DNA of 64,000 nucleotides from positions 65,136 to 129,135 of the forward strand of contig JAAXIC010000049.1 of NCBI GenBank assembly GCA_012270555.1. The letters run 5' to 3'. Positions 31,436 to 53,898 of this stretch are shown here, in pieces. The position numbers were made by a program, and so were the translations under genes. Positions within the stretch are counted from its first letter, which is position 1. Each line of letters opens with the position of its first letter. The notes beneath the pieces are model-generated. The model did not search any database. It worked only from the letters and a program-made list of their open reading frames with translations, and was not told the origin of the DNA. The DNA is from Chloroflexota bacterium (GTDB lineage Bacteria; Chloroflexota; UBA11872; VXOZ01).

Positions 31436-32539
31436 ATGCAACAGCTCCAAGTCGGCTTTGTAGGTCTCCATCGCGGCGGCGCGCTCTTGCGCGCCATGGC
31501 CGCGCACCCACGCGTTGAAGTTGCAGCTCTTTGTGATCTAAAGGAAGAGCTTCTCGCCACTGTGGCCGGAGACTTCAACCTACCTGATAGTGCGCTCTAC
31601 ACGGCATTCGACGAATTCGTCAACGCTGCGCTGGATATCGTCGTGATCGCCACGCCCATCGAGTTGCACGCGGCACAGACCATTGCCGCCATGGAGAGCG
31701 GCAAGCACGTGCTCTGTGAACAGACCGTAGCCTACACTTTGGACGAGTGTGCGGCGGTCATTGCCGCCCAAGAGCGCACCGGCAATGTCTACATGATGGT
31801 GGAGAATCACTGCTACTTTCATTACATCCGCGAGTGGCGCAAACTCATCGCGCGCGGGGACCTCGGCACGCTCTTCTATGCGGAGGCGGACTACATTCAC
31901 GAGATCGCACACTTGCTGCGCGACCCCGACACCGGCACGCCTAAGTGGCGGCTGACGCGCCCGCCGATTTGGTATTGCGCGCACCCGCTGGGGCCGTTAC
32001 TCACGCTCATGGACGACCGCATCGTAAAGGCCACTGGCGCGTCCGCCGGCAGGAACATCTTCCCGGAAGAAGAGGACTTAGGCCACTTGGATATGGAAGT
32101 TGGGCTCTTTCACACTGAGAAGGGCAGCGTCATCAAAATTCAGCGTAGCCAGGTAGCGCTCCGGCATCCGCAGTTGGCCTTTTCCTCGCTCTACGGCACC
32201 AAGGGGTTCATTGAGAACGGTCGCTACGTTGAAAACCGCGGTACAAGCGGGCGCGCTTCAACCGGACGTTACTTTAACGTAGATACGATGTCCAAACAGT
32301 CCGGGGCGCAGGAGATCGACTGCCCGTTGGTGGATCCCAACGCGCCGCCGGAGGCTCTTCTCGGCGGCCATGGTACGTCCGAGTACTTCCTGGTGCAGGA
32401 CTTCATTGACGCAATCGACAACAACACAAAGGCCCCCATCGACGCCGTACGCGCCGTGGAGTTCACAGCCCCTGGCATCATCGCCCACGAGGCTGCCATG
32501 CAAGGCGGCGTCTGGCTCGACGTGCCGCAGTTCCGCTAG
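31436..32539 (+). CDS. Gfo/Idh/MocA family oxidoreductase, copy 1
   Basis: 367 residues. The N-terminal NAD(P)-binding fold starts LQVGFVGLHRGG, with VIATPIELHA and VLCEQTVAYTL; the catalytic-fold beta domain follows. The family's usual EKP at the end of the fifth strand reads EQT here, so the lysine often used for cofactor and substrate binding is missing. The same change is present in copy 2. GAGAGGT precedes the ATG. The protein is about 80 per cent similar by eye to copy 2 and both precede two paired sulfatases, so it probably oxidises or epimerises a sugar released from a sulfated glycan (inference). Confidence 0.85.
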   Translation: MQQLQVGFVGLHRGGALLRAMAAHPRVEVAALCDLKEELLATVAGDFNLPDSALYTAFDEFVNAALDIVVIATPIELHAAQTIAAMESGKHVLCEQTVAYTLDECAAVIAAQERTGNVYMMVENHCYFHYIREWRKLIARGDLGTLFYAEADYIHEIAHLLRDPDTGTPKWRLTRPPIWYCAHPLGPLLTLMDDRIVKATGASAGRNIFPEEEDLGHLDMEVGLFHTEKGSVIKIQRSQVALRHPQLAFSSLYGTKGFIENGRYVENRGTSGRASTGRYFNVDTMSKQSGAQEIDCPLVDPNAPPEALLGGHGTSEYFLVQDFIDAIDNNTKAPIDAVRAVEFTAPGIIAHEAAMQGGVWLDVPQFR

Positions 32540-32629
32540 CGAATTGCTAATTGGGCTATCCTGCCACAAGTCGAAAGACTGACTGACGGATTGGATCGCA
32601 TTGGGCGTCTGCAACGCCTCACATCAGAG

Positions 32630-32720
32630 TAGCACGGGGGCTTGCCCCCAATGCTGTCGCATTAAGATCAAGAAAGTTCGCTCATCGGGCGCGCTCTGCC
32701 CCTCTCTCCCTGGGGAGAGA
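32630..32720 (+). repeat. Composite repeat (family D plus family-B end)
   Basis: The stretch CGGGGGCTTGCCCCCAATGC, TGTCGCATTAAGAT and GCTCATCGGGCGCGCTCTGCC leads directly into a family-B palindrome (CCTCTCTCCCTGGGGAGAG). The same order of parts recurs at 35622-35784 and, inverted, at 51889-51996. Confidence 0.7.
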
Positions 32721-32793
32721 AGCTGTATCCGTCCATAGGTCTCGAAATTCCACTTCAGAGTTCTGTTTAGGAAAGATGCCGAAAGGAATGCTC

Positions 32794-33882
32794 ATGGGCA
32801 AATTGCAGGTTGGGTTTGTCGGTCTGCGCCGCGGCGGCGGTCTCGTGCGCGCCTTGGCCGCGCATCCACGTGTTGAAGTTGCCGCACTCTGCGACCTGAA
32901 AGAAGAGACCCTCACGGAGATGGCCCCTGACTATGGTCTGAGCGACGACCGGCTCTTCACCGCCTTTGACGACTTCGTCAACGCTGCGCTCGATATTGTC
33001 GTAATCGCAACGCCTATCGAGTTTCACGCAGCGCAGTCGATCGCTGCTCTGGAGAGCGGCAAGCACGTGCTCTGCGAGCAGACCGTGGCCTACACGCTGG
33101 ACGAATGCGCAGCCGTCATTGCCGCCCAGGAGCGCACCGGCAACGTCTATATGATGGCGGAGAACTACTGCTACTTTCACTACATACTAGAGTGGCGAAA
33201 ACTCGTCGCGCGGGGCACTCTTGGCAAACTCTTCTATGCGGAAGCAGAGTATGTTCACGAAATCGCCGACCTGCTGCGCGACCCGGAAACCGGCACCCCC
33301 AAATGGCGGCTGCCGCGCGCGCCCATTTGGTACTGCGCCCACACGCTCGGCCCGGTGCTCACGCTCATGGACGACCGCATCGTCAAAGCAACCGGCGCGT
33401 CCGCCGGCAGGAACATGCATCCTGAAGAAAAGGACTTGGGACACCTGGACATGGAAGTGGGGCTGTTCCAAACCGAGAAAGGCAACGTGGTCAAGATTCT
33501 GCGCAGCCAGGTGGCGCACCGGCACCCGCATTCGGTCTACTACACGCTGTACGGCACCAAGGGCTTCATCGAGAACGGCCGGCACATCGAGGCCGGAGCC
33601 TCAACCGGACGCTACTTTAATGTAGATACCATGACCAAGCAGACGGGAGCAGAGGAGATTGCGTGTCCGACCGTGGATCGGAACGCGCCGCCAGAGGCCC
33701 TGCAAGGGGGTCACGGCACTTCCGAGTACTTCATGGTGAAAGACTTCATCGCCGCCATCGACAACAACACAAAGGTCCCCATTGACGCCGTCCGCGCAGT
33801 GGAGTTCACCGCTCCTGGCATCGTCGCCCACGAGGCGGCCATGCAGGGCGGCGTGTGGCTGGACGTGCCGCAGTTCCGGTAG
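32794..33882 (+). CDS. Gfo/Idh/MocA family oxidoreductase, copy 2
   Basis: Close paralogue of the gene ending at 32539: the same LQVGFVGLRRGG opening, the same ALDIVVIATPIEFHAAQ, CEQTVAYTLDE and C-terminal GGVWLDVPQFR. Of three ATGs I chose 32794 because AAAGGA lies 6 bases before it and the protein then lines up with copy 1 at its first residue; 32776 would add six residues. About 362 residues. The pair looks like a tandem gene duplication that has diverged, mainly in residues 225-260. Both keep the EQT variant in place of EKP. Confidence 0.85.
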   Translation: MGKLQVGFVGLRRGGGLVRALAAHPRVEVAALCDLKEETLTEMAPDYGLSDDRLFTAFDDFVNAALDIVVIATPIEFHAAQSIAALESGKHVLCEQTVAYTLDECAAVIAAQERTGNVYMMAENYCYFHYILEWRKLVARGTLGKLFYAEAEYVHEIADLLRDPETGTPKWRLPRAPIWYCAHTLGPVLTLMDDRIVKATGASAGRNMHPEEKDLGHLDMEVGLFQTEKGNVVKILRSQVAHRHPHSVYYTLYGTKGFIENGRHIEAGASTGRYFNVDTMTKQTGAEEIACPTVDRNAPPEALQGGHGTSEYFMVKDFIAAIDNNTKVPIDAVRAVEFTAPGIVAHEAAMQGGVWLDVPQFR

Positions 33883-34152: not shown

Positions 34153-35568
34153 ATGACAACCAACAACCGTCCGAACATCCTGCACATCATGGTCGACCAG
34201 ATGCGCTACGACGTCTTGGGTGTCAACGGCAGTCCGATCTGCCGCACGCCGACGCTTGATCGGCTTGCGCATGAAGGCATCAACTATGCCGAAACCTATA
34301 CACCCGCAGGCATCTGCTCGCCTGCGCGCGCTTCCATGGTAACCGGGCGCTACTCCCACAATCACGGCATCTACAACAACTGCCACATGGATGACTCCAT
34401 CCTCGTGGAGTTGCCGCCGGATGAACTGACCTACAGCGAGCTCTTGAATGGAATCGGTTACCGGCTGGGACACGTCGGCAAGTGGCACATCGGCCGCGAG
34501 AACGGTCCCAAGACCCGTGGCTTTCACGACGTAGGCGCACAGGGCATCGCCGACTACCGGCGGGGCCTCGGCCTGCCTTTGCGTCCGCCCACGCCGCCCG
34601 ACGCAGTCTACGCCACCTATCCCAACGAGAAGTTTCTCATCTCCGGCACGGAGCAGTTGCCGGAAGAGGGCAACCTGATGTACTACTTCGCGGAGGAGGG
34701 CATACGTCTCTTGCGCGAGTACGAGGACAAGCAGCCCTTCTACCTGCGTGTCGACTTCAACGGACCGCACCACCCCTACGTCGTCCCGGAGCCGTGGGCC
34801 TCGCTCTATGACCCACAGCAGATCCCGCCGTGGCCGAATTTCTACGATAGCCTGGAGAACAAGCCGGAGGTCCACACCCGGCACAAGTACCACCGGGGCG
34901 TGCAGGACCTCACGTGGGAGGACTGGCAGCCAGCCGTCGCCAAGTACTTTGGGTATGTCAGCTTCCTCGATGCGCTCTTCGCCAAGTTGCTGCAAACGCT
35001 TGACGACCTCGGCATCAGAGATGACACGCTTGTCATATTCAACACCGACCACGGTGACTTCACCGGCAGCCACGGCCAATTCAACAAAGGGCCGCTGCTC
35101 TACCAGGAGGTCTACCACATTCCCATGCTCATGCGCTGGCCGGGCCAAATACCCGCCGGGACTACCACCACGCATTTCACCAGCCTCATCGACATCATGC
35201 CGACCATACTGCAAGCCACAGATCTGCCAATACCGGAGAACCTGGACGGCAAAGCGCTCCAACCACTGTGGAAAGACCCACAGCATGCGGCCTGGCGGGA
35301 CGTGATGGGCTGCGAGTTCCACGCTGACGAATGCGGGATGTTCTCGTCGCGCCTCATTCGTCACAAGCACTACAAATTCGTGTACAATCCCCATGCTTCA
35401 GACGAGCTCTACGACCTGGAGCGCGATCCCGCCGAGTTGGATAACCGGTTCAACGACCCGGCGTATGCGGAGATCCGGCACGACCTGCAGCGCCGCCTGC
35501 TGGTGTGGATGAACGAGACTACCGATCCCTGGCGGCACTGGGCGGCAAAGTGGCTGCCGCTCACGTAA
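34153..35568 (+). CDS. Cys-type sulfatase, copy 1
   Basis: 471 residues, alkaline-phosphatase fold. The modification site is CSPAR (C55) inside TPAGICSPARASMVTGR, so the cysteine must become formylglycine for activity. Metal ligands are visible in HIMVDQMRYD and NTDHGDFTGSHG. I see no clear signal peptide, so a cytoplasmic enzyme or an unusual export route is likely. TGAGGA precedes the ATG. It removes sulfate from a small sulfated molecule or sugar. Its near copy follows at 35899. Confidence 0.93.
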   Translation: MTTNNRPNILHIMVDQMRYDVLGVNGSPICRTPTLDRLAHEGINYAETYTPAGICSPARASMVTGRYSHNHGIYNNCHMDDSILVELPPDELTYSELLNGIGYRLGHVGKWHIGRENGPKTRGFHDVGAQGIADYRRGLGLPLRPPTPPDAVYATYPNEKFLISGTEQLPEEGNLMYYFAEEGIRLLREYEDKQPFYLRVDFNGPHHPYVVPEPWASLYDPQQIPPWPNFYDSLENKPEVHTRHKYHRGVQDLTWEDWQPAVAKYFGYVSFLDALFAKLLQTLDDLGIRDDTLVIFNTDHGDFTGSHGQFNKGPLLYQEVYHIPMLMRWPGQIPAGTTTTHFTSLIDIMPTILQATDLPIPENLDGKALQPLWKDPQHAAWRDVMGCEFHADECGMFSSRLIRHKHYKFVYNPHASDELYDLERDPAELDNRFNDPAYAEIRHDLQRRLLVWMNETTDPWRHWAAKWLPLT

Positions 35569-35898: not shown

Positions 35899-37314
35899 AT
35901 GGCAACCACAAAACGTCCCAACATTCTCCATATCATGGTCGACCAAATGCGGTTTGACATGGTGGGCGTGAATGGCAGTCCCATCTGCCGCACTCCTACC
36001 TTGGATCGTCTTGCGAATGAAGGAATCAACTATGCCGAGGCCTACACGCCGGCCGGCATCTGCTCGCCGGCGCGGGCATCCATGGTAACCGGGCGCTACC
36101 CCCACAATAACGGCATCTACAACAACTGCAGTCAGGGAGAAACCATCCGAGAGGAGTTGCCTGCCGAGGAAATCACCTACAGTGAACTCCTGAATGAAGC
36201 CAGTTACCGGCTGGGCCACGTGGGTAAATGGCACATCGGCCGCGAAAACGGGCCTAAGAAGCGTGGCTTTCACGACGTGGGCGCGGAGAGCATTGCCGAC
36301 TATCGGCGGCAACTTGGCCTGCCCGTGCAACCACCGACCCCACCGGACGCGCTCTATGCCTACTACCCTAACGATGAGTTCCTCATATCCGGCACCGAAC
36401 AGCTACCCGAAGAGGGAAACCAGATGTACTACTTCGCAGAAGAGGGCATGCGCCTCCTCCGCGAGTATGCAGACAAACAGCCGTTCTATCTGCGCGTAGA
36501 CTTCAACGGCCCTCACCATCCGTACGTCGTGCCGGAGCCCTGGGCCTCTATGTATGACCCGCAGCAGATTCCGCCGTGGCCCAATTTCCACGATACTTTC
36601 GAGAACAAGCCGCAGGTGCACATTCGGCACAAGTTCCACCGGGGCGTGCAGGATTTCACCTGGGAGGACTGGCAACCGGCCGTCGCCAAGTATTTCGGGT
36701 ACGTGAGTTTCCTCGATGCACTGTTTGCCAAGCTGCTGCAAACGCTCGACGACCTGGGCATCCGGGATGACACGCTCGTCATTTACAATACGGACCACGG
36801 CGATTTCACTGGTAGCCACGGCCAATTCAACAAGGGCCCTCTGCTCTATCAGGAGGTCTACCACATTCCTCTCATCATGCGCTGGCCGGATCAGATACCC
36901 GCGGGTGTCACCACCTCACATTTCACCAGCCTCATCGACATCATGCCCACGATACTGCAGGCCGCCGACCTCCCCATTCCAGACAATCTCGACGGTGAAG
37001 CGTTGCAGCCGTTGTGGAGCGACCCCCAGGACCCGGAGTGGCGGGAGGTCTTGGGCTGCGAGTTCCATGGCGATGAAGTAGGGCTCTTCTCATCGCGCTT
37101 AATCCGCTATAAGCACTACAAATTCGTGTACAATCCGCACGCCATCGATGAGCTCTACGACTTGGAAAGTGATCCCTACGAGTTGGTAAACCGCTGCGAT
37201 GATCCAGCCTATAAAGACATTCGTCACGACCTGCTGCGACGCTTTATGGTCTGGATGAACGAGACTCAAGATCCCTGGCGCCGCTGGGCAGGAAAGTGGC
37301 TGCCGCTCACGTAG
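35899..37314 (+). CDS. Cys-type sulfatase, copy 2
   Basis: 471 residues, exactly the length of copy 1 and colinear with it throughout (by eye about 80 per cent identical). The catalytic site is again CSPAR in TPAGICSPARASMVTGRY. Differences cluster in residues 76-90 and the last third. It has its own GAGGGAAAAC ribosome site. Like copy 1 it shows no signal peptide. With the two oxidoreductases this makes an A-A-B-B gene order. Confidence 0.93.
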   Translation: MATTKRPNILHIMVDQMRFDMVGVNGSPICRTPTLDRLANEGINYAEAYTPAGICSPARASMVTGRYPHNNGIYNNCSQGETIREELPAEEITYSELLNEASYRLGHVGKWHIGRENGPKKRGFHDVGAESIADYRRQLGLPVQPPTPPDALYAYYPNDEFLISGTEQLPEEGNQMYYFAEEGMRLLREYADKQPFYLRVDFNGPHHPYVVPEPWASMYDPQQIPPWPNFHDTFENKPQVHIRHKFHRGVQDFTWEDWQPAVAKYFGYVSFLDALFAKLLQTLDDLGIRDDTLVIYNTDHGDFTGSHGQFNKGPLLYQEVYHIPLIMRWPDQIPAGVTTSHFTSLIDIMPTILQAADLPIPDNLDGEALQPLWSDPQDPEWREVLGCEFHGDEVGLFSSRLIRYKHYKFVYNPHAIDELYDLESDPYELVNRCDDPAYKDIRHDLLRRFMVWMNETQDPWRRWAGKWLPLT

Positions 37315-37684: not shown

Positions 37685-39076
37685 ATGACAGAATCGCGGA
37701 AAACAAGCACACCTGCCGACATGGCGCTCAGCGCGCCGCGAGCGCGAGCAATGCTCGAGAATCTGGATAGGCTTGCGCTCTACGATGGTATTCTTACCAA
37801 CCCCGTCGGGCAGAGCTACTGCGCCATGCTGCGGTGTGTGGCGGCGGGAGAGCCGCCACACCAGTTTGTCGCAGCCGCTGCCAAACTGAGCGGTTTGCTC
37901 GCGCAGCACAGCGAACGCCCCGCGTGGCGGGCGGATAGCGATGCCTGGCAGCACTTTCTGGTTCAACAGATAGTTGAGGCTGAGAACGCATTCACGCAAA
38001 GTGCCGCACTCGCCGGGCCTAACGGCTTAAGTGCTGCCCTGCGATCACTAGCGGAAGAAGACCTCTCAATCCTCCAACGACTGTTCGACCTCAACGCCGC
38101 GGCTTGGCGGACGTTAGTGCGTCATCTCGAACTGGATGAGACACTGCCCTATCTGGCCTGGGATAACTTTTCTTCTCCAAGTCCATCCGACAACGATAGG
38201 CACGAGCAAGACTTACGCGAGAGACTATCATCACTGCAAGACTGGCGGGAAGCCGTTCCCTTGCTTGCCGCCCACTACCGCCAGCACGGTACCGGAGACT
38301 TCGCCCGTTACAGCGCATTTCGCTGGGTGCATGCCGCTCTTGGCGGGCGCTTGCAAGGCATTGCCCGTCCCGATCCCATACGACTGGAAGAGCTCATTGG
38401 CGACGAGCGGCAGCGGAGCCTCTTGATGCAGAATACCGAGCATCTCCTCGCCGGCTACCGGGCAAATAATGTGCTCCTCTGCGGGGATCGCGGCACCGGC
38501 AAGTCGTCCTCCATCAAAGCGTTGTTGCACCGCTACCGCGATCAAGGGCTCCGCCTCATTGAAGTGGCTAAGGACGACCTGGGCGACTTCCACCACATCG
38601 TGGAGACACTGCAGGAGAGACCGCAATCCTTCGTAGTCTTCGTCGATGATCTTTCCTTCGAGCCTCACGAGACCGATTACAAAGCGCTAAAGGCTGTGTT
38701 GGAGGGCAGTGTGGCGGCGCAACCGCGTAACGTCGTCATCTACGCCACGTCGAACCGCAGCCATCTCATTCGCGAGAACTTCTCCGACCGGGCGGGAATC
38801 CTGGAGGGCGAGGTGCACCCCAAAGAGACATTGCAGGAGACCTTTTCCCTCAGCGACCGCTTTGGCATCCGCATCGCGTTTGTTTCCCCGACACAGGCGC
38901 AGTATCTCGAGATTGTAAGGGCACTTGCCGAGCAACGATGCCTTGCCATCGATCATGCCGACCTGCGCGCCCGCGCCATCACCTGGGCCCAACAGCAGAA
39001 CGGCTTTTCCGGCCGCACGGCGCGTCAATTCGTTGACTTCTTAGAAGGCGACCTGGGCAAGAGTAGAGCGCCGTAG
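37685..39076 (+). CDS. DUF815 family AAA-type ATPase
   Basis: 463 residues. After 240 residues of helical sequence without known motifs comes a P-loop ATPase domain: Walker A GDRGTGKSS (267-275), Walker B FVVFVDDLSFE (about 317-327), and the sensor-like VIYATSNRSHLI typical of DUF815. There is no membrane segment. The function of the family is unknown. It stands between the sulfatases and a sugar-binding lipoprotein with gaps of more than 300 bases on both sides, so it need not belong to the sugar system. Confidence 0.85.
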   Translation: MTESRKTSTPADMALSAPRARAMLENLDRLALYDGILTNPVGQSYCAMLRCVAAGEPPHQFVAAAAKLSGLLAQHSERPAWRADSDAWQHFLVQQIVEAENAFTQSAALAGPNGLSAALRSLAEEDLSILQRLFDLNAAAWRTLVRHLELDETLPYLAWDNFSSPSPSDNDRHEQDLRERLSSLQDWREAVPLLAAHYRQHGTGDFARYSAFRWVHAALGGRLQGIARPDPIRLEELIGDERQRSLLMQNTEHLLAGYRANNVLLCGDRGTGKSSSIKALLHRYRDQGLRLIEVAKDDLGDFHHIVETLQERPQSFVVFVDDLSFEPHETDYKALKAVLEGSVAAQPRNVVIYATSNRSHLIRENFSDRAGILEGEVHPKETLQETFSLSDRFGIRIAFVSPTQAQYLEIVRALAEQRCLAIDHADLRARAITWAQQQNGFSGRTARQFVDFLEGDLGKSRAP

Positions 39077-39198: not shown

Positions 39199-39403
39199 GC
39201 AAGTCTGCGTTGTAGGAAGCAGTAGCGTCAGTCACGCTCTCCACTCCGACCGATGATTTCACTCCCAAATGGACGACTTGCCTCTATACTCTTGACAGCC
39301 ACAAGTGCGGAATCTACACTGACAACGACAGCGAGAGAGGGTACGAAAGCCTAATCATCGCTGGAGGATATTCAACGTCTGAGTGCACACAGGAGGCAGT
39401 GTG

Positions 39404-42829: not shown

Positions 42830-43666
42830 ATGCCGAGCAACTTACTCGAAGTCTTTACAAACTGTTACGGCCGTTACGGGGTGCGCGCGGCGATTGATCT
42901 TGCGCCGCAGGCGGGCATCACGCACCTCGAACTCGCCATGAAACAGCACGGCGGTGTGCTGGAAATCCCCGAAGACGTCGTCGCCAGTGAAAAACTCGGC
43001 GACGAGGGGATACAGAATCTCAAGCGGGAGCTCGACGCTAATGGCCTGACCGTGATCAGCGCCAATGGCTCCGACAATCTCATGGATCCTGATGGGTTTG
43101 CGCGTATAGCGGAGCGCATGCGCCTGGCGGCACTCATTGGCGCCAAGTTCTTCGTCGGCTTGGGCGGGGAACCGGCAGAAGAAGACCGGAAAGACTTCTT
43201 TGACAAGATGGGGGCCATCGGCGACGTGGCGGCGAGTCACGGGCTTACCATTGCCCTCGAAACACACCCCGGCATCACGCAAAACGCAGACGCAATCCTC
43301 GATACCATGCAAGCCCTGCAGCATGATGCCATCCGCATCAACTTCGATACCGGCAACATCCTGTTCTACAACGAAGGCGCCGACGTATACGCACATCTAG
43401 AGGCCGTAATGGACTACGTGGTGCACATGCACCTCAAGGACAGCCGCGGCGGCTACCGGGACTGGTACTTCACGGCCATGGGCGACGGCGGCGCCGTTGA
43501 CTTTGCGCGCATCGGCGAGATTACCAACAATGCGGGGTTCTTTGGCCCCTATAGCCTCGAGATCGAGGGCATTCGTGGGGAGCCGGAGCCAACGTTGGAG
43601 CAGCGGCACGAGCGGGTCGTCCGCAGCGTGGAACACTTGCGGTCCGTTGGATTCCTCTCCAACTGA
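42830..43666 (+). CDS. Sugar phosphate isomerase/epimerase (xylose-isomerase-like TIM barrel)
   Basis: 278 residues of the AP-endonuclease-2/xylose-isomerase-like fold. Visible marks: LELAMKQHGG, ALETHPGITQNADAIL, INFDTGNILFYNEG and VHMHLKDSRGG carry the metal-binding Glu, Asp and His, and FGPYSLEIEGI the last Glu. It probably isomerises or epimerises a keto-sugar. AAAGGAG precedes the ATG. It fits the neighbouring sulfatase and oxidoreductase genes as part of glycan sugar conversion. Confidence 0.87.
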   Translation: MPSNLLEVFTNCYGRYGVRAAIDLAPQAGITHLELAMKQHGGVLEIPEDVVASEKLGDEGIQNLKRELDANGLTVISANGSDNLMDPDGFARIAERMRLAALIGAKFFVGLGGEPAEEDRKDFFDKMGAIGDVAASHGLTIALETHPGITQNADAILDTMQALQHDAIRINFDTGNILFYNEGADVYAHLEAVMDYVVHMHLKDSRGGYRDWYFTAMGDGGAVDFARIGEITNNAGFFGPYSLEIEGIRGEPEPTLEQRHERVVRSVEHLRSVGFLSN

Positions 43667-43779: not shown

Positions 43780-45969
43780 CTAGGCCGTAGGCGTGTGCTC
43801 CAGCCATTTATCGAGAAATGGGAATGACTCTTTGGCGTAAATCTCGTGCCTGCCTTTAAACACGCCCAGCACACAACGGTCGCCGAGGCCAAGCCGCGCG
43901 TAGTGGGTGTGAAGCCGCGCAAACTCTACCTCTGCCTCCTTGTAATAGACCGCTCGATCTTGCGTGCCCTGTTCGATGAAAAGCGGACGGGGACAGATGA
44001 GAGACCCGAGATCAGCGTCGGAGAATTCCAAGAGTTGACCGAGGTAGTACTGATGGAATTCGTCCGTCGTCACGTAGGCGCGGTAGTGTTCGGACTCTAC
44101 ATTGAGCTTTCGCGTGCGTTCATTGAAAAAAGCTGAGACCACCGCCACCTTTATGCGTGGTTCCAGCGGCGTAAGCCACAGGGTCATGGTGCCGCCTTGT
44201 GAAAGACCGTAGAAGCCGATGCGCTCCGGATCGACTTCCGGCAGCGATTGCAAGTAATCGATCACCTTCATTTCGCGCCAGATCTCCAAGCCCATCAAGC
44301 GTTTGCCGACCACAATTGCCTTGTTATGTAAACGCACACGCCGCGGCGTGCCATTGATGCAGTGCGGCGCAAAAACCACGTAGCCCCGTTCCGCCAAGCG
44401 CCGGCCGTAGCGATGGTAGGCATCGTCTTCCCCCAATAGGCCGGCAACGGCTTGTACCGCTCCGCCGAGCCCGTGCTGCGTCACCACGGCAGCCCGCGGC
44501 GCAGTGATGCCCTTGGGCACCAACAGATAGCCAAACAGCCGCACACCGGGTAGCATGCCCAGCGTAACGGCATAGACCGTATGATCGGGCCGATCCGCCA
44601 CCACGCGGCGTTCAGGGTCGAGGGGCACCTGTTCCTCTGCCGGCGGCAGCCCGCCCATCATCGCCAACCAGGCCTCGCGGTTCGCCGCTACAGACTCCGT
44701 GTAGGCCTCCGCGCTGGCGTAGTCGCGCTGCCAACGCGCTTCACGCACCCCGTATGCCTGGTCAGCCAGCGCGTCCAAGTAGCGATCGTGTTGGGCGTTA
44801 GTGTCATCACGCATGGCCTGGATGGCAGCCTGGTCCACAAAAACCGGCGGGGGCGGCGTGGCATTCCCGACGCCGGTCGCCGCATCCCGCTTGGGCGGCT
44901 GGCCGTCATTCAGCCAGCGGTCGAGAAACGCGAAAGACTCCACACCATGAATCTCATGCGGACCGTCAAACTCACCCCATTCGCAGCGCTCACCGATGTC
45001 CAGGCGCTCGTAAATCTCCTTCAACGGGAAGAACTCCTCACGCGCGGTCTCGATGTAGTAGGAACTATCCTTCTGCCCGTGCTCGATCATCACGGGACGC
45101 GGGCAAATGAGCGACGCCAGATCGTAGTCGGAAAACTCGGTGAGGAAATCCGGCTCGAAGTACGACTGTTCGCTGGTGTTTATGAAGGGTCGATAGTGAG
45201 GCGATGCTACAAGCTGCTTCTTGGTGCGCTCGTTGTAGAAAGCCGAGATGATGGTGGCGCGGATGCGTGGTTCGAGCGGTGGAAACCACAGCGCCATCTT
45301 GCCGCCTTGGGAGAGCCCGTAGAAACCGATGCGCTCATTGTCTACCTCAGGCAGCGTTTCCAGCAGGTCAACCGCCCGCATCTCCCGCCAGATTTCCATG
45401 CCCATGAGCGTGCGCCCCACAAGCAGGGCCTTATTGTGCAGGCGGTTGCGCCAGTCAACAAAGTTAATACAGTGGGGAGCAAGCACGACATAGCCCCGCT
45501 CCGCTAACCGCTGACCGTACTTATGGTAGGCATCATCCTCCTCAACCAGACCCGCTATGGAGTGCGGCGTACCGCCCATACCGTGCTGACAAATGATTGC
45601 TGGTCGCGGGGCCTCAACGCGCTTAGGCACTAACAGATGGGCAAAGGAACGAACCTCAGGCAACGTCCCAAACGTGACCGCGTATACAGTGTGGTCGGCG
45701 CGCTCAGCCACCACGTGCCGCTCCGGCTCAAGCGGCACGCGCCCCTCCTCCGTGGGCCAAATCCCAAGCATTGCGCGCCAGTGCTCGCGGTTTGGCGTAA
45801 CCGATTCCGCGTATGCCCGCAGGCTCCCATAGTCACGCCGCCACTTGGCTTGACGCCACTCGTACGCCTGAATAGCGAGCGAATCCAGATACCGCTCCAG
45901 TTGCGCCGCTTGGTCCCAGCGCACAGCCTCCACCGCATTAGATGAAACAAACTCTGGTTCTATCGACAC
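43780..45969 (-). CDS. Tandem-duplicated alpha/beta hydrolase (acetyl esterase/dienelactone hydrolase type)
   Basis: 729 residues made of two like halves about 370 residues apart. Each has QHGMGG or QHGLGG (oxyanion), the nucleophile GFYGLSQGG (S220 and S590), ICPRP followed by an acid (HGQKD, QGTQD) and a late His (GPHEIHG, GRHEIYA). The halves are joined by a Pro-rich linker (near 360-380). Both triads appear intact. The GTG at 45969 follows AAGGAG by 7 bases. There is no signal peptide. It may remove acyl groups from sugars handled by the sulfatase cluster. It is on the opposite strand to its neighbours. Confidence 0.87.
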   Translation of the reverse strand: MSIEPEFVSSNAVEAVRWDQAAQLERYLDSLAIQAYEWRQAKWRRDYGSLRAYAESVTPNREHWRAMLGIWPTEEGRVPLEPERHVVAERADHTVYAVTFGTLPEVRSFAHLLVPKRVEAPRPAIICQHGMGGTPHSIAGLVEEDDAYHKYGQRLAERGYVVLAPHCINFVDWRNRLHNKALLVGRTLMGMEIWREMRAVDLLETLPEVDNERIGFYGLSQGGKMALWFPPLEPRIRATIISAFYNERTKKQLVASPHYRPFINTSEQSYFEPDFLTEFSDYDLASLICPRPVMIEHGQKDSSYYIETAREEFFPLKEIYERLDIGERCEWGEFDGPHEIHGVESFAFLDRWLNDGQPPKRDAATGVGNATPPPPVFVDQAAIQAMRDDTNAQHDRYLDALADQAYGVREARWQRDYASAEAYTESVAANREAWLAMMGGLPPAEEQVPLDPERRVVADRPDHTVYAVTLGMLPGVRLFGYLLVPKGITAPRAAVVTQHGLGGAVQAVAGLLGEDDAYHRYGRRLAERGYVVFAPHCINGTPRRVRLHNKAIVVGKRLMGLEIWREMKVIDYLQSLPEVDPERIGFYGLSQGGTMTLWLTPLEPRIKVAVVSAFFNERTRKLNVESEHYRAYVTTDEFHQYYLGQLLEFSDADLGSLICPRPLFIEQGTQDRAVYYKEAEVEFARLHTHYARLGLGDRCVLGVFKGRHEIYAKESFPFLDKWLEHTPTA

Positions 45970-46327
45970 CAACTGGCTCCTTCCTGCGAAAGCAGTTCAA
46001 TGGATTGTGCCTTCCAAGGGGTGATTCTTTCTATTAGCCCTGCGCTAGCCTACTCGCCTAGAAGGTAAAGAGCTACGCAGGCACGGACTTCCAGTCGCGC
46101 ATTGGCCAAGAAAGGCTAGTCTTCAAGAGACTTTCGTACTTAAGCAGGCGCGTCAATGGTACCTGCGGAGCCGTCTTGAGGAGAGGGCAAGAACGGATTT
46201 AGTGAAGTTGTGGAGCATTGTAGAAACAGCCGGCGGTTTCAGCGTGCGTGCTCCTCAACGCTATTCGCCAAGCGCTAGGACAGAGACCAAGACTCACGCC
46301 TATTGGCATTGCAAGCTTGGTTGGGCG
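45970..46327. other. Intergenic stretch without recognised content
   Basis: Upstream of the tandem esterase and downstream of the small protein that follows, both on the minus strand. I see no repeat family member and no gene here. Confidence 0.5.
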
Positions 46328-46756: not shown

Positions 46757-47065
46757 AACGATTTTTCTCCTCGCGCGAGGCGTTACGTCAGTACCTTTAA
46801 CTATTAGACCATACGGTCAAAAGACGTACAAGCGAATACTCACCCACCTTGTGCTTGCTTCGCTGCCGTTCCGACACGACCGCGCCTTGACCATCCGCCG
46901 TCGCGTCGGTTACGCTCAGTGCCGTAGTCTGGTGGCAGAGTTTTTTTCTCTCGCCGAAATGGTATTCCTCACCGAGTCATGGATAGGGACTGTGCTGTAT
47001 TGCGCGCGCTCGCAGCGGCAGTCCTGCATCTATCGAACTTCCGTAAGCAGAGAAAGGATGCGCCA
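46757..47065. other. Divergent intergenic region
   Basis: 309 bases between the small minus-strand gene and the oxidoreductase; no repeat or RNA gene seen. It should carry promoters for both directions, but I see no strong pair of boxes. Confidence 0.45.
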
Positions 47066-48202
47066 GTGCAAGACATAAACGTTGCCCTCGTCGGCCATCG
47101 CTTTATGGGCAAGGCTCACACGCACGCCTACCGCGACGTGAATCTCTTCTTCCCTTCCGTCCCCTATCGGCCGCGGCTCAAAGTGATCGCCGGGCGCGAC
47201 CCCGCAGCCGTGCAAGAAGCCGCGGACCTACTTGGCTGGGAAGAGTCATCAACCGACTGGCAAGAAGCCGTCACACGCGATGACATTGATCTGGTTGACG
47301 TTGCCACGCCGAACTACCTGCACGCCGACGTGGCTATTACCGCCGCGGAGGCCGGCAAGCAAGTAATCTGCGAAAAGCCGCTGGCGGTGACCGTCCCACA
47401 GGCGCGCGCAATGGTAGCAGCGGTTGAGAAAGCCGGGGTGCGCAATACCATTTGCTTTCACTTTCGGCGTTACCCGGCCGTGCGTCTGGCAAGAAAACTC
47501 ATTGAAGATGGTGAATTGGGCGACATCTACCACTTTCGCGGCTGGTTCCTGGCTGAGCGGTTCGCCGATCCGGCCACACCCCTCGGCTGGCGCATGCAGC
47601 AGGAGCTCGCCGGATTTGGGGTCTTTGGGGATCTCGGCTCGCATGTGCTCGACATCGCGCGCTTCCTGCTGGGCGACGTCCGCAGCGTTTGCGGGAACTT
47701 TGCCACCTACATCAAAGAACGTCCCACGCCCGAGGGCGGCAGCGGTACCGTGACCGTTGACGACTGCGCGCAAGTCCTCATGCAGTTTGCCAACGGCGCG
47801 CAGGGCATCTTGGAAGTGACCAAGCTGGCGCGCGGCAACAAGAACAACTTCGGCTTTGAGGTCAACGGCAGTAAGGGCTCCATCCGTTTCTACTTTGAAC
47901 GGCTGAACGAATTACAGTACTACTGCGGTGACGATCCGGGGCCGCTCACGGGGTTCCGCACCATCCATGCCTCTGACTCTGTGCAGCACGATTACATGCA
48001 CGGCTACTGGCCGGCCGCCGCCCATAGCATCGGGTACGGCGAAGCGTTCATTCACATCGTCAAGGACTTCTTGGAAGCACTGGGCAGCGGGGAGCCCATG
48101 AGTCCCGACTTCGTCGACGGGCTGCGCGTGCAGGAGATCATGGAAGCCGTCGGTACGTCGGTGCAAGACCGGGGATGGGCGGACGTGGCCTCGCCTGGTT
48201 AG
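47066..48202 (+). CDS. Gfo/Idh/MocA family oxidoreductase, canonical type
   Basis: 378 residues. The Rossmann start is INVALVGHRFMGKAHTHAY, the conserved CEKPLAV has the normal EKP, and FHFRRYPAVRLARKLI and GDLGSHVLDIARFL match sugar dehydrogenases of the family. The GTG at 47066 follows AAAGGA. It differs from the two copies at 31-34 kb, which have EQT instead of EKP. It should oxidise or epimerise a sugar or inositol with NAD(P), in the same island as the PLP lyase and KDG kinase. Confidence 0.9.
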   Translation: MQDINVALVGHRFMGKAHTHAYRDVNLFFPSVPYRPRLKVIAGRDPAAVQEAADLLGWEESSTDWQEAVTRDDIDLVDVATPNYLHADVAITAAEAGKQVICEKPLAVTVPQARAMVAAVEKAGVRNTICFHFRRYPAVRLARKLIEDGELGDIYHFRGWFLAERFADPATPLGWRMQQELAGFGVFGDLGSHVLDIARFLLGDVRSVCGNFATYIKERPTPEGGSGTVTVDDCAQVLMQFANGAQGILEVTKLARGNKNNFGFEVNGSKGSIRFYFERLNELQYYCGDDPGPLTGFRTIHASDSVQHDYMHGYWPAAAHSIGYGEAFIHIVKDFLEALGSGEPMSPDFVDGLRVQEIMEAVGTSVQDRGWADVASPG

Positions 48203-48548
48203 CTCCGCATCTATCGGCGCACGCACGCCTAGCCGAGCAATCGAAGAATTGGCGAATTGGAGAACTCTCCGTTCGTACTGAGGGCTGCGCGCAGCCCCTG
48301 TCGAAGTATGAACGGAGAGCAACGCGCCAATGACACCGGATGCTCATTTGGAGACTAATCCCTAGACAAGCATGGAAAGCGTAGTTTCCGTTCTCTGATC
48401 TCCTATGGTCTTCTTGGAAGAAGGCAGGGGTGTGCTCTCAGCAGTATCTGGCCCCCCCTAAACGAACGGCTATTTTTGCGGCGTGGTACCCTAACTACGA
48501 TTAAGATTGAACCCATGAATCCCTAGCAAATTGCGGAGAGGTAACGCA
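48203..48548. other. Intergenic gap with a family-C palindrome
   Basis: I see no gene in this 346-base gap. It holds the palindrome at 48265-48319 and then AT-rich sequence leading to the creatininase gene. Confidence 0.5.
48265..48319. repeat. Family-C palindromic repeat
   Basis: CTCTCCGTTCGTACTGAGGG pairs with the region ending in AAGTATGAACGGAGAG, with an inner GGGCTGC/GCAGCCC stem. It is related to the copy at 39137 through CCGTTCG, CTGAG and CTGTCGAAG. Confidence 0.7.
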
Positions 48549-49397
48549 ATGTACACCAGGTCCTATAACGGCACGAACAAGAAAGTCTTCTGGCAAGAGA
48601 TGTGGCGGCACGAGCTCTATGAAGCGCTTAAGCATGATCCTGTCGTTATCATCCCGGTGGGGTCAATCGAGCAGCACGGTCCTCACAGCCCGACCGACAT
48701 TGACATCAGCATCCCGTACTACCTCGCCGCTGAAGCCGCCACGCGCACCGACGACTACCCCATCATCGTGGCACCGCCGGTCTGGACCGGTTTCACGCAC
48801 TTCAACATGGGGCATATTGGCACAATTACGGTCACGTTGGAAACGTACATCGCGGTGCTCTGCGATGTTTGCCGCAGCATCAAGGCGAATGGGTTCGAGC
48901 GCATGATCATGCTCAACGGCCACGGCGGCAATGTGGCCCCGACGCAGACGACCTCAGTGAAGCTCGCCCAGGAGGACATCTGGTCGCTCCACGTTACGTA
49001 TTTCCACATGGTGGAAGATGAACTCAAGGAGTGGGGCGACAGCGACGACTCCATCGGCCACGGCGGCGAGTGGGAGACCTCGCTGCAGCTCTACCTGCGC
49101 GGCCACATGGTGGACCTGGACAAGCGCACGCCAAACGGTCTGGCGCCCTGGTTCCGCGATCCGGTGGTGGGCAAATTCGCCAAGTGGCCGGAACGACGCC
49201 GGGAAGCCGACGAAGGCGTGATGGGCGATCCTTTTGTAGCCAGCGCCGAGAAAGGCGAGCGTATCTTCAACCTCGCCGTGGAACGCCTCATCTTGGCCTG
49301 CAACGAATTGCACAACTACCCGGTACGCGGCTACTTCGATCGCGGCAGCGACGCGACCCTCGGGCCGCTCTCGCCGGACGCCACGCCGCCACGCTAG
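48549..49397 (+). CDS. Creatininase family amidohydrolase
   Basis: 282 residues. Metal ligands of the family are visible: VGSIEQHGPHSPTDID (Glu, His, Asp), LNGHGGN and HGGEWETS (Glu). The ATG at 48549 follows GGAGAGG. Members hydrolyse cyclic or linear amides such as creatinine or formamidopyrimidines, and are common in marine Chloroflexota-type genomes. It lies 46 bases before the PLP lyase and in the same direction, so the two may be co-transcribed. An amide on an amino sugar or its acid is a plausible substrate, though this is inference. Confidence 0.9.
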   Translation: MYTRSYNGTNKKVFWQEMWRHELYEALKHDPVVIIPVGSIEQHGPHSPTDIDISIPYYLAAEAATRTDDYPIIVAPPVWTGFTHFNMGHIGTITVTLETYIAVLCDVCRSIKANGFERMIMLNGHGGNVAPTQTTSVKLAQEDIWSLHVTYFHMVEDELKEWGDSDDSIGHGGEWETSLQLYLRGHMVDLDKRTPNGLAPWFRDPVVGKFAKWPERRREADEGVMGDPFVASAEKGERIFNLAVERLILACNELHNYPVRGYFDRGSDATLGPLSPDATPPR

Positions 49398-49443: not shown

Positions 49444-50826
49444 ATGCCCACATTCTCCACCAAAGAAGCGGCCGCTAAGCTCGGCCTATCTCAAGTGCGG
49501 ATAAATAGGATTGCCAACGAAAATGGAGGGGTCGGCAGTCGAGATCCACAGACGGGGCACTGGCAGTTTAGTAGTGATGACCTCAAGCGCATTGCCGCAG
49601 TCTCGCCCAAGGCCCGTTTGACAGAAGACCTCGGTGACTTTTACCAAGACCTAGGCGTAAAGCGCGTCATCAATGCGGCCGGAACGCTCACGCGCCTCGG
49701 CGGCACGCCGATGGACGACGACGTACTCGACGCCATGCGCGAAGCGGCGCAGTGGAGCGTGCGTATCGAGGAACTGCAAGAGGCGGCGGGGAACTATCTC
49801 GCCGAGGTCACCGGCGCGGAAGCTGGCTACGTCACCGCCGGCGCAGCGGCAGGCTTGCTGGTCGGCACAGCCGCCTGCCTGGCGGGCCTCGACATTCACA
49901 AGATGAATCTCCTGCCGGATACCGACGCCATTCCCAACGAGGTCATCATCCAACGCCTCCACCGGAACGCCTACGACCATGCTTTGCGCACGGCGGGGGC
50001 GAAATTCGTTGAGGTCGGACATATCGGTCACCCGACCGGAGGCTATACCGAGCCGTGGCATATTGAGACTGCGATTAACGAACGCACGGTTGCCGTACAC
50101 TGGGTCGCTATGCCGGTGGAGGGCGCCGTGAGCTTGGAAGATACCGTTGCCGTCGCCCACAAGCACAACGTGCCGGTCATTGTGGACGCGGCCGGTGGGT
50201 TGCCGCCCGCCGAGAATTTGCAGGGCTATATCGCTACGGGAGCCGACCTTGTCTCTTTCTCCGGCGGCAAGGCGATTCAGGGACCGCAGGCCTCCGGCAT
50301 CCTCGTGGGTCGCCGCGACCTCATTCAATCTGTGGCGCTGCAGCATCAGGACATGGATGTGATGGTGGAAACGTGGACGTTGCGCGAGCAACTGCTTGGT
50401 AGCGGTCGCCTGCTCGGTCCGCCGCTGCAAGGCATCGGCCGCCCGATGAAGGTAGGCAAAGAAGAGATCGCCGGCCTGCTGGCAGCGGTGAAGAAGTACG
50501 TTAGCCGCGACCACACCGCCGCGCGCCAAGAGTGGCTCCGCCGTCTGGAAGCAATCGCCGCCGATCTCAGCGAAGTTGCCGGCGTTTCTACCGAAGTAGT
50601 AGGGCGCGACGGTGCCTCCTATCCCACGCTGCGCGTCTCATTGAACGAATCCGTGCACGGTGTCTCAGCAATTGATTTAGTGAACCGCCTGTTCGACGAC
50701 GATCCGGCCATTGCCGTCAGCCAGTACGGCTCCTTGGAAGGCAGCGTCACCATCAACCCGCTCAACCTGGACGGCGACAAGCCTCAGCTCGTCGCGGCCC
50801 GCATCCGTTCCATCGTCTCGCCGTAG
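49444..50826 (+). CDS. SelA/DgaE-like PLP-dependent lyase with N-terminal HTH-like segment
   Basis: 460 residues. Residues 1-60 look like an excisionase-type helix-turn-helix (FSTKEAAAKLGLSQVRINRI then a wing with WQFSSDDLKRI). From about 65 on comes the SelA-like fold of the D-glucosaminate-6-phosphate ammonia-lyase group: RVINAAGTLTRLGGTPMD, EVTGAEAGYVTAGAA, VIVDAAGGLPP and the PLP lysine in SFSGGKAIQGPQ (K276). It differs from the true SelA at 820-2226 in having GGK and lacking the HTNLGR motif. A likely role is elimination of ammonia or water from an amino- or hydroxy-acid sugar. TAAGGA precedes the ATG. Confidence 0.83.
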   Translation: MPTFSTKEAAAKLGLSQVRINRIANENGGVGSRDPQTGHWQFSSDDLKRIAAVSPKARLTEDLGDFYQDLGVKRVINAAGTLTRLGGTPMDDDVLDAMREAAQWSVRIEELQEAAGNYLAEVTGAEAGYVTAGAAAGLLVGTAACLAGLDIHKMNLLPDTDAIPNEVIIQRLHRNAYDHALRTAGAKFVEVGHIGHPTGGYTEPWHIETAINERTVAVHWVAMPVEGAVSLEDTVAVAHKHNVPVIVDAAGGLPPAENLQGYIATGADLVSFSGGKAIQGPQASGILVGRRDLIQSVALQHQDMDVMVETWTLREQLLGSGRLLGPPLQGIGRPMKVGKEEIAGLLAAVKKYVSRDHTAARQEWLRRLEAIAADLSEVAGVSTEVVGRDGASYPTLRVSLNESVHGVSAIDLVNRLFDDDPAIAVSQYGSLEGSVTINPLNLDGDKPQLVAARIRSIVSP

Positions 50827-51014: not shown

Positions 51015-51674
51015 ATGCGACTCCGTGACTTCGGCGCAGACGGCCAACGCTTTGCCGGAATAATTGGCTTGCGCCGGAACAAGCTGCTTTTCACGGTGCC
51101 TGATCCAAGCTATGCGCAAGAAGCGGAGAATGGCGCACACGTCCTTCCTCTCTGGGGCATCGGCGGCATGTGCGACGCGGGCGAATCGTGGCAGGACGCC
51201 GCTCAGCGCCACGGTGAAGCCGAGACCGACTGCGAAGTGCGGCTCTTTTCCAGCCGCGAAACCTACTATCTCAACGTGAAGAGCGACATCTTTGCCGTAG
51301 ACGTAGACGATGTACCGGCGCCCGCCCTGCTCTATGCCGCGGCCTACCGACCGCCGGACAATCCCTACGGCGACCTGCAAACGATTTACGGCGCGGAGTA
51401 CTTCGCCCACGTGCGGGGCACGCCCCGGCCTGGCGAGGACGCTGCCGCGCTTATTGCCCTCGGCCAGCCGTTGCTCGTGGCCGCGGCCCAGCAGCCGCTA
51501 ACGTTGGACAACCTGCTCCAAGCGGGAGCAGAGCTTTTCCCCAATCCGGACTATCCTCCGCTCGAGCCGACCGCATCCATCACGCCGCTCGGCACGCCAA
51601 ACTTCATGCTGCACGTGCTTGACGCCGGACACTGGTGGCAAACGCTCTCTTTGGCCGACCTGCCGCTGCTCTAG
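51015..51674 (+). CDS. Nudix-like protein with degenerate Nudix box
   Basis: 219 residues. GMCDAGESWQDAAQRHGEAE has the spacing of a Nudix box (G-x5-E-x7-R-x4-E), but the central REUxEE is changed to RHGEAE, so one of the usual metal-binding glutamates is absent. The rest, including the C-terminal NFMLHVLDAGHWWQTLSLADLP, is not recognised. It starts with an ATG without a strong ribosome site, downstream of the PLP lyase after a repeat. It could be a Nudix relative that no longer hydrolyses nucleotides, or a different fold. Confidence 0.5.
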   Translation: MRLRDFGADGQRFAGIIGLRRNKLLFTVPDPSYAQEAENGAHVLPLWGIGGMCDAGESWQDAAQRHGEAETDCEVRLFSSRETYYLNVKSDIFAVDVDDVPAPALLYAAAYRPPDNPYGDLQTIYGAEYFAHVRGTPRPGEDAAALIALGQPLLVAAAQQPLTLDNLLQAGAELFPNPDYPPLEPTASITPLGTPNFMLHVLDAGHWWQTLSLADLPLL

Positions 51675-51996: not shown

Positions 51997-52043
51997 TTCC
52001 GGTTCCCTCCCCCCGGGGAACGGAAGACTCTTGCTCATCCAGT

Positions 52044-52079: not shown

Positions 52080-52084
52080 TTCCG

Positions 52085-53038
52085 TCAAGGCAGCATGTCC
52101 GATTTCTGTTCCCAGGCGGCAAGCGCAGCCTCTACCTCGCTCTTCTCCGGCAAGCTGGCGATAGCACCCCGGCCTCGTACCTTGAGTCCGGCCATGACCA
52201 TGCCCAAGCGCGCTGCTTCCAGCGGCGGCATGTTCTCCACCAGCCCGTGCAAGAACGCGCCATTGAATGCGTCACCGGCGCCGGTCGTGTCGACCACATG
52301 CGACACAGTGAAGGCAGGCACCATCCCCGTTCCATCTTCCGTGCTCAGGTAAACGCCGGCTGCGCCCAGCTTGACCGCTACCGCATACGCGCCAAAGCCA
52401 CGCAGGTAGTCTGCCGTTTCCTCCGCAGTTGCCAAGCCGAACAACTGCTCCGACTCCTCAGGTCCGCTCGGCAGGGCGATGTCCACGTGGGGCAGAAGTT
52501 CTTCAGCCGCGGCCCGCGCCTCCGCCGCCGACCACAGCGCCGGCCGCAGATTGGGGTCGAACGAAACACACACATGCGCCTCATTCGCAATGCGCGCCGC
52601 CGCCAGTGCGGTCGCCCGCGCCGACTCCGAAATTGCCTGGGCGATGCCGCTGATGTGCAGCACCCTTGCCTGTGCGATGTAGTCGGGATCCAAGTCCGCA
52701 GGGGTCATGGTGCTGGGCGCGCTGCCGGCCCGGTAGTACGTAAAATCGCGTTCGCCGTGCCCGTAGATGGAGATGAAATAAATGCCGTTACGCCCCTCCA
52801 CGCGCTTTACGTGTGACGTGTCGATGCCCAAGTTCTCCCAGCCATTTAGCAAATACTTCTGAAAGGGATCATTGCCGACGCGCGAGAGAAAGCCGCACGA
52901 GCTGCCCAGCCGAGACGCCGCCGCCAGCAGGTTGAGCGCATCACCGGCAAAGGCTTTCTGCACCTGCTCCGCCTCTGCCAGCGGCTCTTCAGCAAAGAAC
53001 TCCACCATGCACTCGCCCAGCGAGAGAATGTCAGGCAT
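52085..53038 (-). CDS. kdgK: 2-keto-3-deoxygluconate kinase-like PfkB sugar kinase
   Basis: 317 residues. The PfkB start ILSLGECMVEFF, the substrate region GDALNLLAAASRLG, and the C-terminal ATP and anion-hole motif DTTGAGDAFNGAF are all present. The GxGE-like start and NIYFISIYGHGERDFTYYRAGSA-type segment (here starting GIYFISI) favour 2-keto-3-deoxygluconate kinase over fructokinase. I chose the ATG at 53038 because GGAAGGG lies 6 bases before it; a longer frame to 53113 adds unrelated residues. It lies next to a KDPG aldolase on the same strand, which supports the role. The reaction gives KDPG for the aldolase. Confidence 0.85.
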   Translation of the reverse strand: MPDILSLGECMVEFFAEEPLAEAEQVQKAFAGDALNLLAAASRLGSSCGFLSRVGNDPFQKYLLNGWENLGIDTSHVKRVEGRNGIYFISIYGHGERDFTYYRAGSAPSTMTPADLDPDYIAQARVLHISGIAQAISESARATALAAARIANEAHVCVSFDPNLRPALWSAAEARAAAEELLPHVDIALPSGPEESEQLFGLATAEETADYLRGFGAYAVAVKLGAAGVYLSTEDGTGMVPAFTVSHVVDTTGAGDAFNGAFLHGLVENMPPLEAARLGMVMAGLKVRGRGAIASLPEKSEVEAALAAWEQKSDMLP

Positions 53039-53133
53039 GTTCGACCCTTCCCAATCGCCAATTCGCATTACCATCAAGAGGCCGTTGCGCGGCCCTGCCA
53101 AACAGTTCCGCATGGGCCGTATCGGCCCCGGTT

Positions 53134-53168
53134 CCCCTCACCCCAACCCTCTCCCACAGGGAGAGGGG
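53134..53168 (-). repeat. Family-B palindromic repeat
   Basis: CCCCTCACCCCAACCCTCTC, a CACA loop, then GGGAGAGGGGG, in the gap between the aldolase and kinase genes of the same strand. Confidence 0.8.
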
Positions 53169-53265
53169 GCTTCTCGCTTGTAGGCTTGGGTAGTGCAAAG
53201 GTCTTCGCTAGGAAGGACCCACTCGTAGACCATCGGCGGCAACAAACTGCCAAACGTCACGGAGC

Positions 53266-53898
53266 CTACAGTTCCTCTACAAACCGTCGCGCAAAGTCTG
53301 TGAGGCCCACATAGTCCCCAGCCGCAATGAGCGACGGCGGCATGAGGCCGGAACCCAGCGCTACGTTCGCCGCGCCTGCCTCCAAGTAGGTGCGGTAATT
53401 CTCAAATCCGATACCTCCGGAAGCCACGATGGAAATGTCGGGGAGCGGTCCCAGCACGGACTTGACGTAGCTCGGCCCGCCGACGCTATCGATGGGAAAG
53501 ACCTTCACCATGTCCGAGCCTGACTCGTGGACATCGAGGATTTCAGTCGGTGTCAGACCGGCCATGATGCAGGGCACGTCCGCCTCGTGCGCTTGCGCCA
53601 CGAGCGCGGGCCGGTTCACCGGTCCCACGACGAACTGCGCGCCGGCCGCCAGCGCCTCCCTCGCCTGTACTCCGGTAGTCACAGTGCCTGCACCCACCAG
53701 GCAATTGGCGGGCTTCTCCGCCGCAACCGCTTCAATCACGGCTGCGGCGTCCGGCACCGTAAACGTAATCTCAACGAGCCGGATGCCCGCGGCATACAGC
53801 GCCTGCGCGGTCCGCACCGCCTCCTCAGCGGTCTTGGTGCGCACCACGGCGGTTAGCTTGGCCTCATATAGATCATTCAGCAGCGCCGCACGGCTCAT
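53266..53898 (-). CDS. eda: 2-keto-3-deoxy-6-phosphogluconate aldolase
   Basis: Splits KDPG into pyruvate and glyceraldehyde 3-phosphate, or its relative KDPGal. 210 residues of the TIM-barrel family: TAVVRTKTAEEAV, VEITFTVPDA, VGAGTVTTG, and the Schiff-base lysine in SDMVKVFPIDSVGG. The ATG at 53898 follows TAAGGAG. It precedes the KDG kinase gene on the same strand with a 230-base gap, so the two form the lower end of an Entner-Doudoroff-type route for uronic or amino-sugar acids. Confidence 0.9.
   Translation of the reverse strand: MSRAALLNDLYEAKLTAVVRTKTAEEAVRTAQALYAAGIRLVEITFTVPDAAAVIEAVAAEKPANCLVGAGTVTTGVQAREALAAGAQFVVGPVNRPALVAQAHEADVPCIMAGLTPTEILDVHESGSDMVKVFPIDSVGGPSYVKSVLGPLPDISIVASGGIGFENYRTYLEAGAANVALGSGLMPPSLIAAGDYVGLTDFARRFVEEL

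Follow-up and report, generated by a model that had tools for sequence, protein, structure and literature searches.

Three lines of published work bear on the gene neighbourhood analysed here. Sponge Chloroflexi have been proposed to degrade sulfated glycosaminoglycans via 2-keto-3-deoxygluconate (KDG) kinase and 2-keto-3-deoxy-6-phosphogluconate (KDPG) aldolase (PMC6306507), and a route from glucosamine through glucosaminate to a DgaE homologue has been predicted for haloarchaeal chitin clusters (PMC12343721). The characterised enzyme DGL of Salmonella (7lc0/7lce), a pyridoxal 5'-phosphate (PLP) enzyme of the SelA-type fold family, eliminates from a D-amino acid; its His163 is the demonstrated proton donor (PMC9529869), and the substrate phosphate has been modelled near its Arg301, Arg332 and Arg346. 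We examined positions 31436-53898 of a 64,000-nucleotide stretch (hereafter the window) of contig JAAXIC010000049.1 from a Chloroflexota genome (GCA_012270555.1), for which an earlier note had proposed an undescribed catabolic island for a sulfated amino- or uronic-acid glycan. Scanning the main open reading frames (ORFs) of this interval with Pfam, and ten key ORFs also with NCBIfam, recovered all of the families named in that note. Its observation is confirmed, and its interpretation is partly supported. The system is best explained as having at its core an amide hydrolase and a putative SelA-fold PLP ammonia-lyase, and the most useful result is a branch-wide link between the branch to which this lyase belongs and amide hydrolases.

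The lyase-like protein (49444..50826, plus strand) belongs to a large branch with the motif SGGKxxxGPQxSG that extends over Chloroflexota, Acidobacteriota, Actinomycetota, Planctomycetota, Gemmatimonadota, Latescibacterota and haloarchaea. Its best family matches are the DgaE models TIGR01437 and NF047797, both far under their cut-offs (219.3 against 600 bits and 239.9 against 385 bits, respectively). When aligned to 7lc0, it has Pro and Val in the His162/His163 columns and Thr, Ser and Leu in place of Arg301, Arg332 and Arg346; the PLP lysine is kept (Lys276, within SGGK) and is invariant across 25 sequences. On these scores and residue losses, the DgaE-like identity assigned in the earlier note is rejected, and, judging from sequence, the protein should not be called DgaE. 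The loss of the three arginines fits an unphosphorylated substrate with a kinase acting afterwards. With DGL the protein shares the fold family, the PLP lysine, an expected ammonia-eliminating reaction on a D-amino acid and a nearby aldolase gene, but it differs in the residues listed above, in its motif (SGAKxxxAPTSG in DGL) and in its setting, where a KDG kinase stands instead of a phosphotransferase system (PTS; none was found in the window) and an amide hydrolase is added as partner. Databases label proteins of this branch as 'DgaE family' or 'selenocysteine synthase', a label that the residue loss and the amide-hydrolase pairing correct. Residues 1-60 (49444-49623) form an extension that appears helix-turn-helix-like by eye; one congener (G002) has it in strongly diverged form and three others (G001, G003 and G004) lack it, although the lyase proper is 85-97% identical. 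Elsewhere in the window, positions 760-2226 encode L-seryl-tRNA(Sec) selenium transferase, the true SelA (466 bits), with a MoaA-like gene downstream of it, and the genome encodes four SelA-fold proteins beyond it.

The partner gene, which ends 46 bp before the lyase, encodes a creatininase-family metal amide hydrolase (48546..49397, plus strand; PF02633, 194 bits) that passes the PF02633 cut-off and conserves the metal-site motifs GSIEQHGPH, DIDIS, NGHGGN and HGGEWETS. These features are common to creatininase, MftE and IolN, but the window protein misses all three equivalog cut-offs (TIGR04448 for creatininase, 86.8 bits against 235; MftE, 110 against 172; IolN, 89 against 245) and has another partner gene. 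Creatinine degradation is rejected on the missed creatininase cut-off. A Thermotoga-type inositol pathway (Gfo/Idh, creatininase-like IolN and IolO-like isomerase) is likewise rejected, since the IolN, IolG and IolO cut-offs are missed by a wide margin and since elsewhere the unit consists of creatininase and lyase alone.

To follow these genes across genomes, relatives were searched for the creatininase-family protein, the aldolase (Eda) and the kinase (KdgK), with 61 genomes each, and for the lyase, with 101. Among these relatives, the creatininase gene adjoins the lyase only inside the genus; in a wider collection, five Thermomicrobia-type loci again hold the pair, with a lyase identity of 50-55%. 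An amide hydrolase lies within 2.5 kb of the lyase in 39 of the 80 named branch loci, a count that is not a probability because the loci are mutually related. The partners belong to varying families (creatininase in 8 loci, D-aminoacylase-like in 11 and deacetylase-type amidohydrolase in 20, the amidohydrolase of L085 scoring 360 bits against the NF006689 cut-off of 371) and are mostly encoded on the same strand as the lyase, tens to a few hundred bp apart; in just one further locus is the nearest amide-hydrolase match more than 2.5 kb off. Additionally, RidA is encoded close to the lyase in nine branch loci, which fits an enamine or imine product. Literature searches on the SelA-like/creatininase pair and on cog3964 yielded nothing useful.

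Converging on the lyase from the minus strand are genes for a PfkB-type KDG kinase-like protein (KdgK, 52085..53038; PF00294, 214.8 bits), which meets the PfkB family cut-off and misses the equivalog NF040938 (182.4 bits against 400), and a KDPG/KHG aldolase (Eda, 53266..53898; PF01081), which passes TIGR01182 (178.5 bits against 156); position 53898, the end of the interval, is an internal ATG within the aldolase ORF. Among the relatives searched, KdgK and Eda adjoin the lyase only in the genus and in G055 (the same locus as L074), and overall a KDG kinase and a KDPG aldolase accompany branch members in three lineages outside the genus (L072/L086/L102, L074 and L107). In Acidimicrobiaceae, one of these three lineages, the lyase loci hold KDG kinase, KDPG aldolase, RidA, sugar ATP-binding cassette (ABC) transporter, short-chain dehydrogenase/reductase and mandelate-racemase genes, and haloarchaeal lyase loci hold heparinase-like, GH20, PIG-L deacetylase, AXE1-like, XylI-like and Gfo/Idh genes. 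The KDG kinase and aldolase together with these haloarchaeal glycan-gene contexts make a role of the branch in hexosamine or sugar-acid metabolism plausible. In G006, of the same class, only about 15 bp separate the lyase from a GH3 gene whose nearest match is beta-N-acetylhexosaminidase. As to the co-occurrence that the earlier note had proposed as its check, the full set is limited to one genus, and the lyase with KDG kinase and KDPG aldolase is found in other lineages. As a separate observation, the haloarchaeal islands L055 and L062 both combine heparinase II/III-like, GH20 and SelA-fold lyase genes, L062 adding a D-aminoacylase and a PIG-L deacetylase, and are candidate glycosaminoglycan-like degradation loci.

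The claim that the island was undescribed is partly overtaken by the two published proposals. As in the sponge Chloroflexi proposal (PMC6306507), a Chloroflexota genome of likely sponge origin (see below) here combines sulfatases with KDG kinase and KDPG aldolase, but that proposal uses uronate isomerase and altronate enzymes, whereas here uronate isomerase (UxaC) falls under its cut-off in the genome. The genome's PF04962 match has no uronate genes around it and looks IolB-like, and on these two grounds we reject the idea that uronates supply the KDG. The Natrarchaeobius chitin/glucosamine pathway (PMC12343721), likewise predicted from gene clusters, also has a DgaE homologue feeding an Entner-Doudoroff route, but phosphorylation is assumed there to precede the lyase; in the window protein the phosphate site is lost, and the kinase could act after it.

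Upstream of this core lie three S1 sulfatase genes on the plus strand, Sulf1 (34153..35568; C55-S-P-A-R), its tandem duplicate Sulf2 (35899..37314; C55-S-P-A-R) and Sulf3 (41043..42524; CVPAR). All three pass the PF00884 cut-off (158-174 bits) with a C-x-P-x-R formylglycine motif, and none has a signal peptide judging by its N-terminus, which makes extracellular glycan desulfation unlikely. The solved structure nearest to Sulf1 is an exo-2S-iota-carrageenan sulfatase (226.6 bits). For Sulf3 it is 7oz8 (294 bits, 34% identity across 476 columns), that is BT1918, an S1_46 sulfatase acting on 3-O-sulfated N-acetylglucosamine (PMC10154620; PMC10154612). Sulf3 aligns with it over its full length, but at 34% identity, and BT1918 is periplasmic in Bacteroides whereas Sulf3 has no signal peptide.

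The three sugar oxidoreductases of the earlier note are all Gfo/Idh/MocA proteins, though two of them resemble glycosidases. GfoA (31436..32539, plus strand; PF01408, 60.8 bits) and its tandem duplicate GfoB (32776..33882, plus strand) carry EQT where the catalytic EKP is expected. Like the GH109 enzymes 2ixa and 6t2b, they lack the EKP lysine and have the EN..Y, HxLGP and GGHG blocks (MMxEN, HxLGP and GGHG in GfoA), which we take to be catalytic in that family, and GfoB can be aligned with 6t2b along its entire length and with 2ixa in part. They differ in missing the PF21252 (GH109) cut-off (20.3 bits against 27) and in matching at about 60 bits only. From these motifs, GfoA and GfoB look like GH109-type NAD-dependent glycosidases. 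The third protein, Lgdh (47066..48202, plus strand), has an intact EKP motif and is nearest to the levoglucosan dehydrogenase model (373 bits against a cut-off of 650). A xylose-isomerase-like TIM-barrel sugar isomerase or epimerase (XylI, 42830..43666, plus strand; PF01261, 102 bits) has only weak PDB matches, and an AXE1-like alpha/beta hydrolase, or esterase (43780..45972, minus strand), consists of two tandem domains with a GLSQGG nucleophile motif in each. The scanned window ORFs include neither a polysaccharide lyase nor a glycoside hydrolase above its Pfam cut-off, and the genome has no heparinase II/III; an island degrading polysaccharide is therefore not borne out. What stands of the proposed sulfated amino- or uronic-acid glycan island is a plausible sugar-acid end (lyase, kinase and aldolase) that recurs elsewhere; extracellular glycan breakdown is not supported.

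Taken together, we tentatively propose, with confidence somewhat short of even, that the locus converts a small hexosamine (or a similar D-amino acid), probably bearing sulfate and acyl groups, into a 2-keto-3-deoxy acid by a non-phosphorylative route in the cytoplasm. Mono- or oligosaccharides of sulfated amino sugars would be imported into the cytoplasm, where sulfate, glycoside and O-acyl groups would first be trimmed off by the sulfatases (among them Sulf3, with its resemblance to an N-acetylglucosamine-3-O-sulfatase), the GH109-like proteins and the AXE1-like esterase. Lgdh may then make an N-acylated hexosaminate, the most likely substrate of the creatininase-family enzyme, which would deacylate the small imported 2-amino acid or open its lactam. 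From the free amino acid, D-configured and beta-hydroxylated, the PLP enzyme would then eliminate ammonia. The resulting 2-keto-3-deoxy acid, for instance KDG, would still be unphosphorylated; KdgK would phosphorylate it, and Eda would cleave it to pyruvate and triose phosphate. The families, motifs, synteny, DgaE-residue loss and recurrent pairings were observed directly, and from them we infer which substrates are used, in what order the steps run and that all genes belong to one pathway. Extended to other organisms, the SGGKxxxGPQxSG branch would comprise widespread, unnamed ammonia-lyases that act on 2-amino sugar acids without a phosphate (or on other D-amino acids with a beta-hydroxyl). 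Each lyase would form a two-gene unit with an amide hydrolase, whose family varies, and sponge Chloroflexota, Acidobacteriota, Acidimicrobiaceae and haloarchaea would in this way have an oxidative route that takes N-acylated hexosamines past NagA/NagB; we consider this generalisation doubtful as it stands. The branch-wide loss of DgaE's substrate-binding residues and the pairing with amide hydrolases offer a short, testable hypothesis of how sponge symbionts and haloarchaea may dismantle sulfated or acetylated amino sugars.

Several observations weigh against the proposed pathway, and most of them would be expected if the neighbourhood were not one pathway but a set of independent metabolic genes, namely those for the sulfatases, the sugar oxidoreductases, KdgK-Eda, the DUF815 ATPase and the solute-binding protein (SBP), kept together by descent in the genus, with only the creatininase-family protein and the lyase forming a functional unit. 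Gene order (GfoA/B-Sulf1/2-DUF815-SBP-Sulf3-XylI-Est-Lgdh-Creat-lyase-orf-KdgK-Eda) is kept across the genus with small losses, but the synteny extends into unrelated flanks (trpE, a polysaccharide deacetylase and xdh), so gene order alone is no proof of a functional island. Intergenic gaps of 113-1093 bp, the 46 bp between creatininase and lyase being the sole exception, indicate that the cluster is not a tight operon, gaps of 200-400 bp argue against a single operon, and strands are mixed. The full set was not seen outside one genus; beyond it, none of the sulfatase, Gfo/Idh, XylI and esterase genes accompanies the creatininase-type lyase, nor are sugar-acid genes evident around the Thermomicrobia-type pairs. 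In another Chloroflexota family (G041), KdgK and Eda stand as a separate, lyase-free module near enolase; about 20 sulfatases are spread across contigs of the source genome; and a NagB-like deaminase encoded elsewhere in that genome gives glucosamine another route. Shared descent without shared function is a substantial possibility, though still short of probable. It sits less easily with the three lineages outside the genus in which KdgK and Eda accompany different members of the lyase branch, and with the haloarchaeal loci, where AXE1-like, XylI-like and Gfo/Idh genes again come together with the lyase.

The neighbours of other branch members and of paralogues in the same genome (D-aminoacylase, MlrC-type peptidase, peptide ABC transporter, M55 D-aminopeptidase and D-serine-dehydratase-like genes) point to D-amino acids, and the lyase could be an ammonia-lyase for, e.g., D-serine or D-threonine derived from peptides or N-acyl-D-amino acids, with the creatininase-family amidase freeing its substrate and the sugar genes incidental. 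Branch members in Anaerolineae adjoin N-acyl-D-amino-acid-deacylase-like (D-aminoacylase-like), M81 and Opp/Dpp transporter genes, an Amidohydro_3 gene lies near the homologue that is closest to the window creatininase beyond the genus, and the characterised relative DGL itself acts on a D-amino acid. The genome's own C14 paralogue of the lyase adjoins the M55 D-aminopeptidase and D-serine-dehydratase-like genes, but in our tree, which has long branches, it groups with DGL and not with the window branch. We judge a pure D-amino-acid function unlikely, as it is hard to square with other branch members that lie among KDG kinase/aldolase or glycan-lyase genes. Chemically, the sugar and D-amino-acid interpretations may meet in N-acetyl-D-glucosaminate, which would itself count as a beta-hydroxylated N-acyl-D-amino acid. 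That a sulfated glycan feeds a DgaE-type glucosaminate(-6-phosphate) pathway, as the best family matches of the lyase and the adjacent kinase and aldolase might suggest, is highly improbable: the curated cut-offs are missed by far, the DGL histidines and arginines are absent, neither a PTS nor a polysaccharide-degrading enzyme was found in the window, and the sulfatases are devoid of signal peptides.

The cluster also contains features that the earlier note had not mentioned, including the two tandem duplications (GfoA/GfoB and Sulf1/Sulf2). Mid-cluster lie a DUF815 AAA ATPase (37685..39076, plus strand; PF05673, 318 bits), which probably has no part in the pathway, and a lone ABC solute-binding protein (39383..40795, plus strand; PF01547, 67.9 bits) with a Tat/lipoprotein-like N-terminus and no adjoining permease gene. 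Between the lyase and KdgK, orf51015 (51015..51674, plus strand) is kept within the genus and matches no family. A further ORF at 46202-46807 is weak, belongs to no family and is probably not a gene, since it shows 51-61% identity in congeners against 85-95% for its neighbours. The window is part of contig C15 in a 3.18 Mb genome that is 97% complete, and, among named genomes, those most closely related to it are Chloroflexota metagenome bins, some of whose sample names belong to sponge studies; the source organism is probably associated with a marine sponge. Upstream of the cluster, positions 27107-31195 encode molybdenum hydroxylase genes (FAD, 2Fe-2S and Mo subunits) that are kept in congeners, and positions 7050-18516 encode a DUF5696 protein (8982-11435) flanked by two ABC sugar-transporter permease sets, together with a 1033-aa solute-binding protein.

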